A stretch of DNA of 60,656 nucleotides from a virus. A program made the position numbers and the translations under genes. Of this stretch, positions 898 through 54,251 are shown piece after piece (the stretch's first letter is position 1; every line of letters begins with the position of its first letter). The stretch covers positions 1-60,656 of IMG/VR virus record IMGVR_UViG_3300044699_000035; one strand, 5' to 3'. Below the pieces are notes generated by a model that did no database searches, was not told where the DNA came from, and worked only from the letters and a program-made list of their open reading frames with translations.

Positions 898-2012
898 ATG
901 AGCGACGACGCAAGTGTCATGAGTTTCGAAGCAACCGTAGCTGCTGCAGTCCGTGCCTTCAAGTCGGGCATGGGCAAGAAGTTGCGTGCAGTATTCATCG
1001 ACGGGCCACCGGCGTGGGCAAGAACGCGACCGCATCGTACATCGCGCAAGGGTGGGGTTGAAGCACATCTTCATGCTGAAGATGGCGCACCACGAGGTAC
1101 CCGACATTGCCGGTGTGCCGGTGCCGAAGGACGAGACGCAGCGCACGCACTACTACCCAGCGCCGACATGCTGCCCCCGCAGGAGCCGAACGAACCGTAC
1201 CTCATGTGGTTCACGACGAGGCGACGGACTGCAACTGGGCCAGCAGAATCTCATGTGCCAGATGGTGCACGAGAACCGGAATTCACAACTACATCTTTCA
1301 CCCGAACACCTGTCACTTGCTCTTCCGCAACAGGGTGCAGGACCGCAGCGGTGCGAACCGATCGTCACCAAGCTGGGCAATCGATGCGCGCACTACACCA
1401 TGCAGCCCACGTGGACGAGTTTGTTCAGTACGGTGCCCGTCACGGTGGAACCGACGTTGCGTGCGTTCATCAAGATGCGCGGCGAGGAGCGGATCAATCC
1501 GTCGGACAACAAGGCCAAACGCAACCGACGGACTTCAACTCGTTCGACCCGACCGACCCGGCACAGATGGCCAAGCCTCAGTTCGCGAGCTCGCGCAGCT
1601 ACGAGTTCGTTCAGCGACTACCTGAAACTACGTCGATGAGCACGAGCCCGGGCTGGACAGCGGCACGTTGTCGAGCGAGATCGCGGGCATGGTGGGTACG
1701 CCGGTGGCACTGCGATCTCCGGCTTCCGCACGTGGCGGTGACCATGCCTGACCCCGACGCCATCCTCGCAGGTAAGCGGGTTGCGTTCCCGTCCAAGCAA
1801 GAGGTGATGTGGGCGTTGAGTCTGACGCTGGCATCGAAGGTCAAGAAGGAGAACGTGAAGCACATGCATGCGTACCTGGGTCAGGGTCCGCACGAGTTCC
1901 TGGCCCTGGCTGCACGCATCGCCTTCGATACAAGGGTGGCAGCGCTGGCCGGCAACGACTTCAACGCCATGATCGGGGACCCGAAATCAAGGCGATGTTC
2001 AGCGCAACGTAA
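898..2012 (+). CDS. MoxR-type AAA+ ATPase, frameshifted
   Basis: This is a predicted AAA+ ATPase of the MoxR type, a class of chaperone-like ATPases that usually work with a VWA-domain partner. The start at 898 (MSDDASVMSF) follows GAAAGGAATAGC. After about 40 residues comes a P-loop, which reads GPPGVGKNA once one missing base near 1010 is restored. A Walker B-like DEATDCN lies near 1215. The rest of the reading (HIFMLKMAHHEVPDIAGVPV, then MLPPQEPNEPYLM, ending IKAMFSAT) needs several frame changes between 1010 and 1990. The P-loop shows Asn where Ser or Thr normally coordinates magnesium; this could be a base error. The DUF3150-like gene and the metallopeptidase/VWA gene follow on the same strand. 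Family assignment rests on motifs and context. Confidence 0.7.
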
Positions 2013-2029
2013 GAGTGCGCTTGTTAGCG

Positions 2030-2047
2030 AGTGCTAACTTTAGCACT
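2030..2047. promoter_or_regulatory. Palindromic operator-like site 1 (AGTGCTAACTTTAGCACT)
   Basis: This is one of five copies of an inverted repeat with arms GTGCTAA and TTAGCAC. This copy has one extra T in the centre. It begins 18 bases after the AAA+ gene stop and ends 16 bases before the next ATG (2064). A TATAAC at 2047-2052 could serve as a -10 element. There is no T-tract, so a terminator is unlikely. Confidence 0.7.
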
Positions 2048-2063
2048 ATAACCTGGAGAAATC

Positions 2064-2933
2064 ATGAACCGTTAAAGAATCAAGGTGCAAGACAAGGCAA
2101 ACCATCGTCGTACTGAACTGCGCGTTCAGCTGGGTACCGTCACCGACAAGGAGATCACCGATAAACCACGCAAGCGAAGGGAGCGACGAGGGGTTCACTG
2201 CGCGTACGTAAGACTCTGCTCCCGCAGGCATCGGTGTCTTCTCGAAGCCGTGGGCCATCACCGGGGAGTTCTATCGGTGGCACTCTCGCAAGACGTACTC
2301 GAGCCCGATCGAAGGGCAGCGGATCATGCCGGTCGCGTTCTACATGGACTACATGCAGCAGTTCGGGAAGCGAAGGCTGCGGGCCGGGCAGCCCTTGCCG
2401 CGCTTATGGATGGGTATGTGGGTGCAGTAGAGCAGGCGAAGCATTACTCGGTGCATCGTTCAAGGCCGACGACTACCCGCCAGTCGAGGAGCTTGCGCAC
2501 TACCTCATAGTTCGACGTGCGCTTCTGCCTGTGCCTGCCGGTGACCACATCATGAAACGCACTAGGTGCGGGCGTGGCTGCTGAGTGGACGCCTACGTGG
2601 CCGAGATCATGCAAGCTGCAGCCAACGATGCGAAGGAACTCTGCGCAAGGCAGTCGCACGCATGGCCGATCGTTGAGCAAGAAGGACGGGAAGATCTACG
2701 ACAGCATGACCGACTACATCAACGAACAGGCGAAGGATACGCCGCTCATCGCAGGGCTGGCCGACGACCCCGAACTCAAGGTCATGATCATGAAGTGAAG
2801 GACACCCTGGCAGGGTACGACGCCGACACGTTCAGGGATACAAGGGTGCGCGCACTCCAGGTGGCGCTGCGGCGATGGATATTCTCAGAGATGGGGGATG
2901 AAGAACGTTTACTACATCGCCGCCAACAAGTAG
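2064..2933 (+). CDS. DUF3150-like phage protein, frameshifted
   Basis: The start at 2064 follows a good ribosome site (CTGGAGAAATC). The continuous protein is recovered only by joining frames: FSKPWAITGEFYRWHSRKTY (about 2240), then YMDYMQQFG, then ALAALMDGYVGAVEQAK, then FKADDYPPVEELAHY (about 2460), then VDAYVAEIMQAAANDA (2585), and finally MKNVYYIAANK with a stop at 2933. The pattern of an alpha-helical protein with a DYPPVEEL segment and a position between a MoxR ATPase and a VWA protein resembles DUF3150 phage proteins. That match is from memory of the family, so the name is tentative. The gene lies directly downstream of operator site 1. Confidence 0.5.
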
Positions 2934-2937
2934 AGGA

Positions 2938-3219
2938 TGTGGGCATCGCACCGCACCGAGAAAGCAGCTGCGCGCTGCATCCGCACGTAATTCTAGCCAC
3001 GGCAATGGTGCAGGTGTGGCCTATGCCGAAACAACCGACTTAGTAAAGGGCCTAAATGAAAAACGAAACTCAGTAGTGCCAAGCATCGGTCGTGGTCGAG
3101 ATGGACAACGACCAGATGAAGATGTTGACGCGGGTAGCGAAGAAGGATCAAACGCTACCACCTGGGCTGGTGCCATCCGCCAGCTGATCAGCGAAGCCGA
3201 TCGGAGGAACAAGAAATGA
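2938..3219 (+). CDS. Small hypothetical protein(s), frameshifted
   Basis: A start at 2938 (MWASHRTEKAAARCIRT) runs through a frame break near 2990 into AYAETTDLVKGLNEK. The stretch to the stop at 3219 (MDNDQMKMLTRVAKKDQT, then LISEADRRNKK) may be the same protein or a second small one starting at 3056 or 3101. It is charged and probably helical. No family was recognised. Confidence 0.3.
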   Translation, partial: CGHRTAPRKQLRAASARNSSHGNGAGVAYAETTDLVKGLNEKRNSVVPSIGRGRDGQRPDEDVDAGSEEGSNATTWAGAIRQLISEADRRNKK

Positions 3220-3338
3220 AAGACTACTCGCACTGCCCCGGCTACCCGGGCGGCACGTTCTCATCGCCTGCACCATCGGACTACTGCGCCGACATGCCAG
3301 TGCATGCAGTGGCCAGAAACCATCTTCACTATGGTTAG
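3216..3338 (+). CDS. Small hypothetical protein (40 aa)
   Basis: The start codon overlaps the previous stop (ATGA at 3216-3219), a sign of translational coupling. The protein begins MKDYSHCPGYPGGTFSSP and is rich in Cys, His, Pro and Gly. An alternative frame from about 3280 gives more cysteines (CQCMQWPE), so the 3' half may be shifted. Function unknown. Confidence 0.35.
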   Translation: MKDYSHCPGYPGGTFSSPAPSDYCADMPVHAVARNHLHYG

Positions 3339-3384
3339 TGCTGCTCGCAGTGGCAGTCCTAGTTCTCATTCGTAGGAGAAGTCA

Positions 3385-4580
3385 GTGCAACTAGACCAAG
3401 ATGCAAACTGCGAAGGGCAAGCTGGCCTTGCACGCTGGCTTCTGGCTGGCACTGGCGTCGAACTGCAGTGGGGGTGACATGAAGGTGACTGCCCCGGCGG
3501 TGTGGCTGCGACCAACGGGCGCAAGGTGTTCTACAACTCCGACGTGCTGAACGAGTGGCCGATGGGTGACGTCGTGTTCGTGGCCCTGCACGAGATCATG
3601 CACAACATGCTGTGCCACCTCGTTCGCTTCGGTGATCGGGACAAGCAGATCGCAGGCATCGCCATGGATATCGTGGGCAACAACATCCTGCGCAAGATGT
3701 GTGGCGAACTGCCGAACCTGAAGATGACTGTGCCCGCATCGGCATGTCTGCCGAACTGTTCAACGTGCCACCTGACCTGACGTTCGAGGAGACGTACAAC
3801 CTGCTGATAAAGAACGCGGAGAAGATCGGCGGCGGCATGGGCAACGGGTCAGCCGCGGGTCCTGGCTCAGGCTTCGACGCACACGAGCCGATGGCCGCGA
3901 GGATGGCAAGCCGCTGACCAGCGCGCAGAAGGAAGCGGTGGAGAAGGAGTGGAAGGTAGCCGTGCAGGCGGCAGCGCATATGGCGCGCAGCATGGGCAAG
4001 ATGCCCGGGTTCATGGAGGAATTCATCGGCGAGTTGATCAGCCGAAGATCGACTGGCGTGCACAGCTGCGCCACTGCATGGCCAAGGTTACCCACGATGA
4101 ATCTTCTTACAGAAGATTTAACCGGCGTCATCTGTCACGGGGCCATGTACCTGCCGGGGCGGTACAACGAGCGCATCGAGAGCATCGCTTACTTCTGTGA
4201 TACCTCTGGCTCATAAGCTCAGAGGAATTTCGCGCAGCCAAGGGTGCGATGGTCGACATACTCGAGGAGTTGAAGCCGACCAAGATCTTCTTCGGCCAAT
4301 GCGACACGCGACTGCATGACGTAGTGGAGCTCACGCCCGACGATCTCCCGCTACCCGCACTCACGGTCAAGGGGCGTGGGGGCACGGATATGGAGGAAGC
4401 GTTCGAGTGGGCGTGCCAGAACGAGGACGAGATCGAAGCGTTCATCCTGCAGACGGATGGATATGTGCCTGCCCTCGACCGGCGCTGCACCCGAAGGTAC
4501 CGGTGATCATCATCTGCACGACGGATGCCGTGCTGCCCGCTGGCTGGGACTTCACGAACGTGGTGCGAGTGGTGTTGTGA
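3385..4580 (+). CDS. Metallopeptidase/VWA-like protein (DUF2201 type), frameshifted
   Basis: This is the probable partner of the MoxR ATPase. A GTG start at 3385 follows GGAGAAGTCA. The N-terminal part carries a zinc-binding motif, FVALHEIMHNMLCH (about 3583-3622), typical of the putative metallopeptidase domain in DUF2201 proteins. The C-terminal part has a VWA-like core: KIFFGQCDTRLHD (about 4276), GRGGTDMEEAFEWA (about 4373; the GGTD resembles a MIDAS Thr-Asp) and EAFILQTDGYVP (about 4434), ending DFTNVVRVVL with a stop at 4578-4580. At least five one-base frame changes (near 3395-3430, 3500, 3735, 3895 and 4040-4230) interrupt the frame. The order AAA+, DUF3150-like, metallopeptidase/VWA is a recognised phage gene neighbourhood. 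The role is unknown; remodelling of a host or virion complex is a guess. Confidence 0.72.
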
Positions 4581-4709: not shown

Positions 4710-4876
4710 ATGGAGCACGTTAGCATGGGCCCTGCGGGTGTACTTCAGCGAGAAGTACGGTAAGGGCGTGATGCTGGCGACCTATCGCACTAGTGATACG
4801 TGGAACTCCTGTAGCGGATAGGTCGTACTTCGATGAGGCATGGCCGATCTTCGAGTCCTATGTGAGGATGTTATGA
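4710..4876 (+). CDS. Small tandem paralogue 1 (ends WxxFxxYxRML), frameshifted
   Basis: A start at 4710 (MEHVSMG) leads after a frame break into LRVYFSEKYGKGVMLATYRT and, after another, into FDEAWPIFESYVRML with a stop at 4874-4876. The end matches the ends of the genes stopping at 5147 and 5450 (WETFMNYARML), and the FSEKY segment matches FSRKY of the third copy. This suggests an expanded family of short proteins. Function unknown. Confidence 0.4.
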
Positions 4877-4965
4877 AAGGCGCGGACTACAAAGCGGTAC
4901 GCCTATCGGATGGCGACAAACGGTGGCAACGGACGTACTGCCATGGGGTGGGAGCGTGGCAGTGA
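4873..4965 (+). CDS. Very small hypothetical protein (30 aa)
   Basis: An intact ORF starting MKGADYKAVRLSDGDKRWQ. Its ATG overlaps the previous stop (ATGA) and its stop overlaps the next GTG (GTGA). Overlaps on both sides favour a real, coupled gene, although it could instead be the N-terminal part of the next protein. Confidence 0.4.
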   Translation: MKGADYKAVRLSDGDKRWQRTYCHGVGAWQ

Positions 4966-5147
4966 AGACGATGAAGTACAAGAAGGCCAACGTCGACATA
5001 CCGATGTACCTGTGGGTAGACCAGGGCCCTGGGTGAAGTCGGCTTGCAACGGAAAGAAGCCTAACCGTGCGACCAAGCAAGTCATTCGCCGTGGTACCCT
5101 CGGTACCCTGTGGGAAACGTTCATTGAACTACGCGAGGATGTTGTGA
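4962..5147 (+). CDS. Small tandem paralogue 2, frameshifted
   Basis: A GTG start at 4962 gives MKTMKYKKANVDIPMYLWV. The frame breaks near 5030, and the end reads WETFMNYARML if one extra T near 5123 is removed. As read, the frame runs on instead (WETFIELREDVVKM). The 35-base end is nearly identical to the one at 5416-5450, so the paralogues share their C-terminal sequence almost base for base. Confidence 0.4.
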
Positions 5148-5450
5148 AGATGTTCATAGATTACGCAGCACAGAACCGAAAAGGTAGGACGCTGTGGTTC
5201 ATGCGCGGACCCATCAGCAGCAATTACGTGGAGACAGACGCGCGCGAAGTCATGTTTCCGCCGGAGACCTGGGCGTATGCGCGTGGACTTGGGCCTCATT
5301 CAGCAGAAAGTACCGCACCGTATTTCTTTTCGCCGAAGGCAACGGTGAGTTTACCGAAGGAACGCCGTGGGAAATGCAAGTCAGCACCGGGGACAATCCG
5401 CGCGCGAACAAGCGTGGGAAACGTTCATGAACTACGCGAGGATGTTGTGA
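5144..5450 (+). CDS. Small tandem paralogue 3, frameshifted
   Basis: A GTG at 5144 overlaps the previous stop. The protein begins MKMFIDYAAQNRKGRTLWF, then MFPPETWAYARG. In a second frame it gives WASFSRKYRTVFLFAEGNGE and FTEGTPWEMQVSTGDNP, and in a third it ends EQAWETFMNYARML with a stop at 5450. Its FSRKY and WxxFxxYxRML elements link it to the gene ending at 4876. No known domain. Confidence 0.42.
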
Positions 5451-5950: not shown

Positions 5951-6208
5951 ATGAAGCGACTATGGTGCGCGCTGATCACGCGCGGTGATGGTGGGTGGTG
6001 GAAGATGAACACTAGTGAAGGGGACCCTCCGATAGAGCGATCGTTCCTCTACCGGTTCAACGTGCTGCTCGAACAGCTGCATCGTTTAATGGAGAACACG
6101 ATGATGCATCGGATAGTCCACGGTCACCATCAGGTGACTCGCGTAAAGATTGAAGTGGTGGGGCCGACGATCATAGAGAAGAAGTGGCCGAAGCGAAGCG
6201 AGTGCTAA
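5951..6208 (+). CDS. Small hypothetical protein (85 aa)
   Basis: An intact ORF with a reasonable ribosome site (TGGAGCAATCTCA). It begins MKRLWCALITRGDGGWW and ends KKWPKRSEC. Its TAA stop is the TAA inside operator-like site 2 (6201-6217). The first ATPase region ends the same way at site 1 (AGCGAGTGCTAA), so the bases flanking the two sites are also shared. No domain recognised. Confidence 0.45.
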   Translation: MKRLWCALITRGDGGWWKMNTSEGDPPIERSFLYRFNVLLEQLHRLMENTMMHRIVHGHHQVTRVKIEVVGPTIIEKKWPKRSEC

Positions 6209-6217
6209 CTCAGCACT
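6201..6217. promoter_or_regulatory. Palindromic operator-like site 2 (AGTGCTAACTCAGCACT)
   Basis: Second copy of the inverted repeat, with one arm mismatch (C for T). It overlaps the stop codon of the gene ending at 6208. The sequence AGCGAGTGCTAACT is shared with site 1 beyond the palindrome itself. Confidence 0.65.
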
Positions 6218-6603: not shown

Positions 6604-6874
6604 GATACGCGTGGATGGACAACACCCTTAGCGGTGGCACGTACCAATCGCTATATGATATTACGATCAACGACATACGCCCACTGCCGGGGACGCTGGT
6701 CGTCTTGCGGTTCAACAAGAAGGTCTTAGCGGATAAATACTACGTCGGCATCGGCGATGACTACAGCCGTGAGCCGTACAGAAACCACGACATAATCGCT
6801 AGGGGCACATGGGACGAATGCTACCCCCGTGTTCAAGTTCGCTTGTGCTATAGGAAGGACTGGTGCTGCCATGA
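6600..6874 (+). CDS. Small tandem paralogue A (CYPVFKFAC ending), frameshifted near the end
   Basis: The start at 6600 overlaps the previous stop. The protein begins MRYAWMDNTLSGGTYQSLYD and continues LVVLRFNKKVLADKYYVGIG and DDYSREPYRNHD. Removing one C near 6827 turns the end into CYPVFKFAC..GLVLP with a stop at 6872-6874, matching the next gene. A 17-base stretch, AAGGACTGGTGCTGCCA, is shared exactly with 7114-7130. Function unknown. Confidence 0.45.
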
Positions 6875-7134
6875 GATATGTACTGACGAAGGGACGGTTC
6901 CTGTATCGCGACGATGACAAGAAGTACAACGGCGAATGCCTAGCGAAGATACCGCCGGTGCCCATTCAGGGCGAGTGCCAAGTCTAGTGCAAGACTCTGG
7001 TAGGTGGGTAGCATCGGGCAACGATTTCAACTGTGAAAAGAACGAGCCGTACGACTAGCAATGGCTGGTACGTGGATACCTGCTACCCCATATTCAAGTT
7101 CGCATGTGGGTTGCAAGGACTGGTGCTGCCATGA
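6871..7134 (+). CDS. Small tandem paralogue B (CYPIFKFAC ending), frameshifted
   Basis: It starts MRYVLTKGRFLYRDDDKKYN at an ATGA overlap. The middle (SGRWVASGNDFNCEKNEPYD) and end (NGWYVDTCYPIFKFAC, GLQGLVLP) lie in other frames. It shares with paralogue A the MRY start, the EPYxN segment and the CYP(V/I)FKFAC...GLVLP tail. It lies directly upstream of the DNA polymerase gene. Confidence 0.45.
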
Positions 7135-21482: not shown

Positions 21483-21817
21483 ATGTAGACAAGATCAACA
21501 AGACCGCGCCGCCGGTCGAAGAACATTCCGACGAAGAGCAGCGGCAGGTGTCGGGGCTGTACGAGGCGATGTGGAAACTGTTCGACGGTGTGGACCATGT
21601 AGTCGTGGCGAAAGCATGCGGGGTATTCATGGTCACGCTGATGCATGTGAGTGAGAAGTGGGGGCACATCATTCCCGGGTTCATGAATCAAATGACCATG
21701 GGTGCTAACTTAGCACTGAACCATCACAAACCAAAAGGAAATGACAATGGCGAAGAAGGCGGCGGTACCGAAGAAGCGCAAGGGGACGATCGAGGTGTGG
21801 AAGTCAAAGAAGGATAG
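21467..21817 (+). CDS. Hypothetical protein with an acidic tail (116 aa)
   Basis: It starts MDTGLDVDKINKTAPPVEEH within the end of the membrane-protein gene. The middle, VDHVVVAKACGVFMVTLMHV, is hydrophobic. Operator-like site 3 lies inside it (encoding GANLALNH) and the DUF1508 start lies 70 bases before its stop. The natural end may therefore be earlier, with the tail (DNGEEGGGTEEAQGDD) a frame artefact. Confidence 0.45.
   Translation: MDTGLDVDKINKTAPPVEEHSDEEQRQVSGLYEAMWKLFDGVDHVVVAKACGVFMVTLMHVSEKWGHIIPGFMNQMTMGANLALNHHKPKGNDNGEEGGGTEEAQGDDRGVEVKEG
21701..21717. promoter_or_regulatory. Palindromic operator-like site 3 (GGTGCTAACTTAGCACT)
   Basis: Perfect 15-bp palindrome (GTGCTAA-C-TTAGCAC), identical over 17 bases to site 4 at 59716. 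It ends 29 bases before the ATG of the DUF1508 gene (21747). No obvious TATAAT follows here. Confidence 0.7.
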
Positions 21818-35734: not shown

Positions 35735-41937
<6,203 letters not shown>

Positions 41938-49390: not shown

Positions 49391-50441
49391 CGCGACCCAC
49401 ATGATCAGCACGTACCCCGGCGCACCAACACCACCCGCGTTGGTCGATCCCCGACAGCCCGCCTGCGCCGCCACCACCCGAGCCGTACGCCACCGCAGCG
49501 CCACCAGCACTGCCGCCGTTACCACCGACACCACCAGGTACCATAGATCGTGCTCGAGCCGCCGCCACCGCCGCCCTGGCTGCTGACCGCCACACCACCG
49601 GCAGCGCCTGTGTACGCGCCGCTACCAGCCCCGCGCGCCCCCGCACCGATCGTCGTAGCGCCGGCACCACCCGCACCACCACCGAAGTAGCAGTTGCTCT
49701 CCGCTGTGCCGATCGCGCCAGCACCGACCCCACCGATACCGCCAGCCACGCCGCCACCGTTGCCGCCGAACGATGTCGAACCGACACCACCCAAGCCACC
49801 GTTAGCGATCACGTACCCAGCGACCGAACTGAAGCCCGCCTGTCGCACCAGTCGCCGTGCCGCCACCAGCTGGCGCTCCTGCACCGCCGACACCAACGAC
49901 AACTGGAACCTGCGGACAGGGGCGTTACAAAGATCGGGAACGACGCGATGAACTCACCTGCTCCACCACCTCCGCCACCGGCCGCGCCGGCACGCGTTCC
50001 ACCGCCGCCACCTGCACCGATCGCCGTAATCCAGATCGCCGATACGCCAGCAGGAACATTGAACGTGCCGCTCGACAGAAATTCTTGCCCGCGCAATATG
50101 CCGTTACCCGCGGCAGCGGTACCCGTTGCACCGGTTGGCCCTGTCGGTCCAGTAGGACCCGTTGGACCCGTTGGACCCGTTGGACCCGTCGCGCCTGCGC
50201 CAGGACCGGTGGGACCGGTTGGACCCGTTGGACCCGTAGCACCTGCGCCAGGACCGGTGGGGCCCGTTGGTCCGGTTGCACCCGTACCCGCAGGGCCAGT
50301 TGGCCCCGTAGGACCTGTCGGCCCAGTAGCTCCAGTGGCACCGTTACCGACAGCCCCAGTGGGTTGCACGCAGCATTCTTGACACTGCCCGCAGCCACCA
50401 CAGGACGGAGTTGGGCACGACGATCGATGGGTAGTAACCAT
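49391..50441 (-). CDS. Collagen-like and glycine-rich virion protein 1, frameshifted
   Basis: After a Cys-rich start ([16 protein letters not shown]) comes a Gly-x-y collagen-like repeat ([17 protein letters not shown] and onward, about 50350-50120), then [20 protein letters not shown], the glycine-rich module ([17 protein letters not shown]), and after shifts near 49900 and 49540 more glycine repeats, ending GYVLIMWVA at 49391. Such Gly-Pro-Thr repeats form trimeric stalks in phage fibres. The antisense proline-valine frames are shadows. Confidence 0.7.
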
Positions 50442-50448
50442 CACATCC

Positions 50449-52266
<1,818 letters not shown>

Positions 52267-52279
52267 CATTTGGCTGTGC

Positions 52280-52976
52280 TCAGAAGTTGGGGAATGCAGT
52301 AGTCGGAACAGGAATCGTCGCGCCAGTGAAACCGCGTCCACTACCGACGGTAAGACGGAAATCGTCGTAGTGGCCAGGAGCAGGACCAGTACCGAAAGAT
52401 CCTTGCCCCAAACGCAATGGCATCCCTATGTACGTCGTTCCATCGGTGTAATTCGAACCAACTTGCGCTGCGGTCCCGCCACCGAGAGTGCCCCTGTACA
52501 TCCGCGTGGTCCCGCTTACACGAGCGACCGCGATGTACTGCCATGCTGCTGCCGTCATCACTGACCCCGTGATTCGATCCGCGGAACTCACGTAATAGCG
52601 CAGCGATGTTCCGTTCGCGTAGATCGCCGGATACGCACCTTCAGAAGCGGGACGCCCGTCGAAGTAAACCTGTGATCCAGTGTTGTTCGTCGGACGGACC
52701 CATAGCTCGATCACGAAATCATTACTGCCAATGGCGTAGTTTGCATTGCTTGGCGCATTGACATTGTTGTTGCTGGGAACGCTGACGCTCGCAGTCCCAA
52801 ATGCTTTTTCCGACGTGGATAGAACGGAAGCCCCACTAGGACCAAAGGCATTCGCGCCGATAGTTTGCGGAAACGAGTTGCTGCCATTCGCTCCATCAAA
52901 GTGCGTCAGGTGCTTGACGAACGAGATGAAGGGTCCGAACGCCCAATCATCAACAGCGCTGCATGAGGAGCCGCCA

Positions 52977-52977
<1 letters not shown>
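52280..52977 (-). CDS. LamG/concanavalin-like lectin-domain virion protein, frameshifted at the start
   Basis: The start at 52977 overlaps the previous [19 protein letters not shown], then after one shift [20 protein letters not shown]. The domain body, [40 protein letters not shown] and [20 protein letters not shown], matches Laminin_G_3-type lectin folds. It would decorate the tail or bind carbohydrate. Confidence 0.75.

Positions 52978-54251
<1,274 letters not shown>

Follow-up and report, generated by a model that had tools for sequence, protein, structure and literature searches.

A three-gene cassette of a MoxR-type ATPase, a DUF3150 protein and a metallopeptidase-VWA protein shared by phages and plasmids

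The stretch of DNA analyzed here, referred to below as the window, comprises positions 1 to 60,656 (60,656 bases) of the IMG/VR virus record IMGVR_UViG_3300044699_000035. Three consecutive genes at 898-4580 (Table 1) encode an AAA+ ATPase of the MoxR type, a DUF3150 protein, and a protein in which a metallopeptidase domain is joined to a C-terminal VWA domain. The open reading frames of the window are heavily disrupted, and none of the three proteins is contained in a single frame. A reading of the DNA letters that preceded this analysis (the original prediction) had proposed these identities, likened the module to the bacterial RavA-ViaA system, and considered it a candidate for an undescribed takeover or defence-related system.

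Table 1. Features of the three-gene module and their positions in the window
Feature	Position	Strand	Basis
Gene 1: MoxR/midasin-clade AAA+ ATPase, phrog_1297, N4 gp24 homologue; frames broken	898-2012	+	Stitched match and frameshift-aware score
Operator-like palindrome AGTGCTAA-CT-TTAGCACT, interval between genes 1 and 2	2030-2047		Perfect 8-base-pair arms
Gene 2: DUF3150 (PF11348) protein; frames broken, start and stop approximate	2064-2933	+	Frameshift-aware score and intact relatives
Gene 3: DUF2201_N metallopeptidase domain and C-terminal DUF2201 VWA domain, phrog_1314, N4 gp25 homologue; frames broken, start at 3384 or 3401	3384-4580	+	Pfam, PHROG, frameshift-aware score
HEIMH zinc-binding motif (HExxHxxxxH)	3589-3603	+	Direct reading
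VWA MIDAS motifs DTSGS (about 4195) and GRGGTD (GGTD about 4380)	4190-4395	+	Direct reading

The three genes were recognized across their broken frames by two approaches. In the first, peptides were stitched across frames and compared with the Pfam and PHROG families. The second was independent of stitching and consisted of a frameshift-tolerant alignment of the raw DNA to profiles built from intact relatives only, with 80 other segments of the window (both strands) and 60 dinucleotide shuffles per gene serving as controls. The frameshift-aware scores were 67.4 bits for the ATPase, 62.3 bits for DUF3150 and 230.9 bits for DUF2201, against a best control score, for any gene, of 24.3 bits. Because these scores exceed all controls, all three identifications, that of DUF3150 included, are judged sound at the level of sequence comparison, and the original prediction is upheld in this respect. 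Chance and sequencing artefact were considered as sources of the matches and rejected by the shuffle controls. In a six-frame search of the window, DUF3150 and DUF2201 match only inside this module.

The stitched gene 1 protein matches phrog_1297, annotated as "ATPase", at 3.6e-31, and its frameshift-aware alignment extends over 991-1878 with 13 frame changes (control maximum 20.6 bits). Walker A lies near 1001-1029 and Walker B, reading DEATD, near 1215; both align with those of six phage ATPases, as do the sensor Asn and the Arg finger. The full MoxR AAA+ core (P-loop, Walker A and B, sensor 1 Asn and Arg finger) is present, and in the ATPase alignments the Walker motifs, sensor 1 Asn and Arg finger are invariant or nearly so, with sensor 2 also conserved. 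A search of the raw window gave no match to the AAA_5 family; an intact relative (L064) scores above the cut-off for it. The nearest solved structure to the ATPase by sequence profile is midasin (1.8e-22), whose AAA+ ring pulls on assembly factors that its MIDAS domain holds.

The alignment of gene 2 covers 2079-2889 and columns 8-284 of the 291 in the model, with 11 frame changes and a control maximum of 20.1 bits, and the sequence GGAG lies immediately 5' of its ATG at 2064. The stitched gene 2 protein returned no significant database match, and the Pfam DUF3150 model is blind to the broken sequence. The DUF3150 identity is instead supported by the intact relatives in the gene 2 profile, of which L018 and L064 score above the Pfam DUF3150 cut-off (29.2 and 25.4 bits, versus 24.9). 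Two AlphaFold models were made, with a mean predicted local distance difference test (pLDDT) of 79 for DUF3150 and 80 for the other; the DUF3150 prediction (predicted template modelling score 0.57) consists of long helices and a short strand region, a form that would fit an adaptor. Searches of solved structures with DUF3150 and with DUF2201 gave no match. No homologues of gene 2 were found among the small genes that separate the ATPase/DUF2201 pair in phages Presley, XC38 and RHph_TM3_14A. No description of DUF3150 was found in the full-text literature searched, a collection of 5.39 million papers outside which most subscription-journal papers and preprints lie.

The stitched gene 3 protein matches DUF2201_N (1.1e-30) and DUF2201 (6e-16) in Pfam as well as phrog_1314 (2.8e-76). 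Its profile matches were also obtained in the window without stitching, and the frameshift-aware alignment requires only five frame changes over 3502-4467. The HEIMH motif and the VWA-like GGTD site noted in the original prediction are both directly readable, and the Walker, HExxH and MIDAS residues on which that prediction depended are all present. The HExxH motif of zinc metallopeptidases (zincins) is accompanied by a putative third ligand, and peptidase activity is predicted from this motif. In two alignments, one of seven sequences (the window and six phages) and one of 40 others, the three His of HExxHxxxxH and the MIDAS Asp/Ser/Ser/Thr/Asp columns are invariant, and HExxHxxxxH is kept in 97 of 108 distinct DUF2201 proteins. 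A pattern search with a short gene 3 peptide gave no match, and the seven-phage DUF2201 alignment is too diverse for a pattern scan. Pfam finds no HNH domain in gene 3 or its relatives, and finds metallopeptidase and VWA domains instead; judging by this domain content, the "HNH endonuclease" label of phrog_1314 and of RefSeq records such as NC_008720 gp25 looks wrong, and reference records would thus mislabel the second protein of the ATPase/DUF2201 pair.

Homologues of DUF3150 adjoin the ATPase/DUF2201 pair in environmental viral contigs. A scan with one environmental DUF3150 homologue yielded 80 viral loci, and in 68 of these the genes are consecutive on one strand in the order DUF3150-ATPase-DUF2201, usually tens of bases apart; the remaining 12 mostly end at a contig edge, the clearest exception being L122. 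The order found in the window, ATPase-DUF3150-DUF2201, is present in 32 of 33 Burkholderiales contigs and in five of the six DUF3150 records first examined from plasmid and phage collections. It occurs on Cupriavidus, Burkholderia, Rhodovastum, Simplicispira and Variovorax plasmids and in Synechococcus phage MinM2, with extra genes intervening between the three in MinM2 and Simplicispira. The co-occurrence of the three genes in relatives that the original prediction called for is therefore strong.

Among plasmids, 44 match DUF3150, of which 16 are typed as conjugative and 20 as non-mobilizable. On Burkholderia plasmids, the cassette has PRTRC genes on one side and type IV secretion genes on the other, and VirB/Tra genes follow it directly on the same strand. 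A scan of Pseudomonadota genomes was done with an alignment profile, because the Pfam DUF3150 model missed even known Burkholderia members; in this sample of one genome per species, limited by a loose first look, a DUF3150 match occurred in one of 398 genomes, that one being the query's own, and the cassette thus belongs to mobile elements. In the ATPase tree, roseophage CRP-7 and the Rhodovastum plasmid group together (97/92), a sign of probable exchange between phages and plasmids; the trees give the window's own sequence no firm placement. A different arrangement was observed on a Candidatus Manganitrophus plasmid (L072), where DUF3150 lies beside another AAA ATPase, DUF1257 and DUF2997, with no DUF2201 gene.

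The cassette exists both in this three-gene form and in a common two-gene form; a tblastn search with gene 3 matched 482 phage records. In most phages examined, the genes sit with replication genes and not with capsid genes. The module adjoins DNA polymerase/helicase genes in the window, in Rhizobium phage RHph_TM3_14A, in Vibrio D505, in Acinetobacter XC38 and in Presley. Downstream of the module, the window carries DNA polymerase, exonuclease and helicase, in that sequence, and the corresponding block of RHph_TM3_14A is arranged alike, running from ATPase through small genes, metallopeptidase, DNA polymerase I, RecB-type exonuclease and VRR-NUC to SNF2 helicase. Two-gene MoxR/VWA pairs were also observed near DUF262 genes on Synechocystis plasmid pSYSA (L189) and on a Sphaerotilus plasmid (L190), the latter with a Sir2 gene as well; a defence link of this bacterial pair is possible.

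The original prediction's view of the module as undescribed does not hold in full, since the ATPase/peptidase-VWA pair is that of N4 gp24/gp25 and a similar pair has been published for jumbo phages. N4 gp24 and gp25 are core genes of N4-like phages, have no known function and are expressed as middle transcripts (PMC4193335). These two proteins (phrog_1297 and phrog_1314, in the Schitoviridae core) are homologous to the ATPase and DUF2201 protein of the window, in the same order and with the same active-site residues, and the features of the pair are all found in the window: an ATPase match and a nearby DUF2201_N/DUF2201 protein with HExxH and MIDAS motifs. N4 differs in having no DUF3150, and its identity to the window is only 22% for the ATPase and 26% for DUF2201. 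In group 2.2 jumbo phages, a MoxR ATPase accompanies a VWA protein that has a metallopeptidase domain at its N terminus (Iyer et al. 2021, PMC7824862). By description, this pair has the same two parts as genes 1 and 3; no third subunit is described there and the role proposed is virion assembly, whereas the window module has DUF3150. The Burkholderiales and Rhodovastum plasmid and MinM2 cassettes have all three genes in the window order, although their DUF2201 proteins are at best about 31% identical to that of the window, and their genes are annotated piecemeal as hypothetical, ATP-binding or VWA-like. The ATPase/DUF2201 pair is therefore already known, but no description of the constant third gene, DUF3150, as its partner, of the plasmid form or of the three-gene cassette as a unit could be found in the literature searched.

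The parallel with RavA-ViaA of Escherichia coli holds for the chaperone-like logic of a MoxR ATPase with a VWA partner. It is an analogue only: the window has a third gene and a peptidase domain in gene 3, and no RavA- or ViaA-specific Pfam domains were found in the window proteins or their relatives. The VMAP ternary conflict systems (PMC7159879) likewise combine MoxR, VWA and a third conserved component, but the bpMoxR score of one relative was only 11.3 bits, against a cut-off of 27, and no VMAP or effector domain was found. Hundreds of sequenced phages, the model phage N4 among them, carry the two-gene core, whose function is not known. That the three-gene form is common to phages and conjugative plasmids moves the question from the building of virions to needs that both share in a newly entered host cell, and makes it testable in a standard laboratory phage.

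The reading we favor, with a confidence that is about even, is that the three genes together specify one ATP-driven remodelling machine, in which a DUF3150 adaptor is combined with a peptidase-VWA arm. It would work early or midway through infection, upon a host complex or the replication of phage DNA, rather than in the building of virions. The motor would be an AAA+ ring of the MoxR/midasin type, formed by the gene 1 protein. Gene 3 would be the effector arm, its VWA domain acting as a hook that couples the ring to the target through a metal-bound acidic MIDAS contact and its N-terminal zinc-peptidase domain cutting or gripping that target. These motor and hook roles are suggested by analogy with midasin. 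The DUF3150 protein may be a dedicated adaptor that broadens or fixes the choice of target, with which two-gene elements dispense. In the window phage, complex formation, ATPase and peptidase activity, and action most likely early or midway in infection would all follow from this scheme. A narrower version, which we put forward tentatively as possible but doubtful, is that the cassette is a mobile-element-specific AAA+ unfoldase-peptidase, with DUF3150 as its target adaptor, by which phages and conjugative plasmids alike eliminate or inactivate one shared class of host protein shortly after they enter the cell.

Several observations weigh against the remodeller scheme. The window's own proteins are readable only across many frameshifts, and only the linkage of their genes suggests that the three proteins interact physically. 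For none of the members did the literature yield a biochemical or genetic test. DUF3150 was not found in nine of ten phages tested, including the nearest isolated relative, RHph_TM3_14A, with MinM2 the only one to have it, and DUF3150 is therefore not always required. The plasmid ATPases carry DD, not DE, in Walker B. Members of one Paraburkholderia group (L179-L181) no longer have the zinc motif, and HEDEGH replaces HExxH in six viral contigs (L011, L013, L016, L018, L020 and L024); because of these natural losses, cleavage may be dispensable in some members. HEDEGH has the appearance of a one-residue insertion in the motif.

A role in virion assembly, as a chaperone that includes proteolytic processing of structural proteins, has been suggested for the group 2.2 jumbo-phage pair by analogy with the MoxR-VWA system needed for tail assembly in the Acidianus two-tailed virus (PMC7824862). 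The status of gp24/gp25 as core genes in N4-like phages is compatible with this, and roseophage RPP1 has a second structural module near its homologues (PMC4193335). Conjugative plasmids, however, make no virions and also carry the cassette with DUF3150, the phage copies lie in the replication block away from capsid and portal genes, and the N4 gp24/gp25 transcripts are middle rather than late (PMC4193335); for these reasons a general role in virion assembly is disfavored, and we rate it as unlikely. If the machine instead disabled a host defence protein, or shielded its carrier from other elements, its restriction to mobile elements would be expected, the conserved third gene could serve as target adaptor, and the DUF262 and/or Sir2 genes near the two-gene form on pSYSA and the Sphaerotilus plasmid would fit. 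Those neighbors amount to only two cases and accompany only the two-gene form, while the only match to the PADLOC defence models is a 34-residue P-loop stretch of one ATPase (to mads_8, 1.5e-5). Anti-defence genes, moreover, are usually patchy in distribution. The pair, by contrast, belongs to the core genes of N4-like phages (PMC4193335). The takeover or defence role proposed in the original prediction is at this stage a hypothesis, and a counter-defence or inter-element defence function is in our estimate unlikely.

A third reading makes genes 1 and 3 a metal-chelatase partner of the CobS/CobT kind, which would increase cobalamin by using CobN of the host; such a role has been proposed for the viral CobST clusters of tailed viruses (PMC8651126). 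The general architecture of an AAA+ protein with a VWA-MIDAS protein is shared, peptidase annotations are often wrongly given to viral cobT (PMC8651126), and gene 1 matches phrog_249 ("porphyrin biosynthesis") weakly (0.006). Its match to phrog_1297 is far closer, though, and gene 3 has a conserved HExxHxxxxH; this reading is disfavored because the above-cut-off matches of gene 3 and of its intact relatives are to DUF2201_N/DUF2201, with no CobT model among them, and its probability is very low. Lower still is the probability that the cassette helps plasmids to conjugate or to assemble type IV secretion, and that phages have recruited it to serve an unrelated membrane or DNA-transfer complex. 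The VirB/Tra genes downstream of the Burkholderia cassette would suit such a helper, but other cassette plasmids lack such neighbors, nearly half of the DUF3150 plasmids (20 of 44) are typed as non-mobilizable, and phages have no conjugation or type IV secretion apparatus.

The operator-like site that the original prediction placed before gene 2 is real as a sequence feature. Its full sequence is AGTGCTAACTTTAGCACT, and the motif GTGCTAANTTAGCAC has four further copies in the window within two mismatches, where 0.08 would be expected by chance and none of 100 shuffles reached four. The repeated palindrome RGTGCTAACTTAGCACT was observed at 2030-2047, where it has one extra base, and at 6201-6217, 21701-21717, 59716-59732 and 60473-60489; TATAAT directly follows the copy at 59716. 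No exact match to the palindrome occurred among 188 fetched loci. From its sequence, this repeat looks like a putative operator of a phage regulator.

The window sequence had no match in nucleotide searches of the phage collection. The best matches of its portal protein are in Rhizobium phages of the RHph_TM3_14A group (32% identity) and in HMO-2011-like phages. An N4-like (Schitovirus) identity was considered for the window phage and rejected, because its portal and replication genes indicate an HMO-2011-like/Rhizobium TM3_14A-like phage. At 36100-36460 the sequence contains extended homopolymers of C, G and A, among them C16G14 and several of poly-A, which suggest uncorrected sequencing errors; they are probably a sequencing or assembly artefact, consistent with the disrupted frames. 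Near-duplicate stretches ~260-304 bases apart at 4854-5450 and 6825-7134 may represent either true gene duplication or assembly error. On the minus strand at 49812-53023, collagen-like GPTGPTG repeats are seen in the translation of probable tail-fibre genes.

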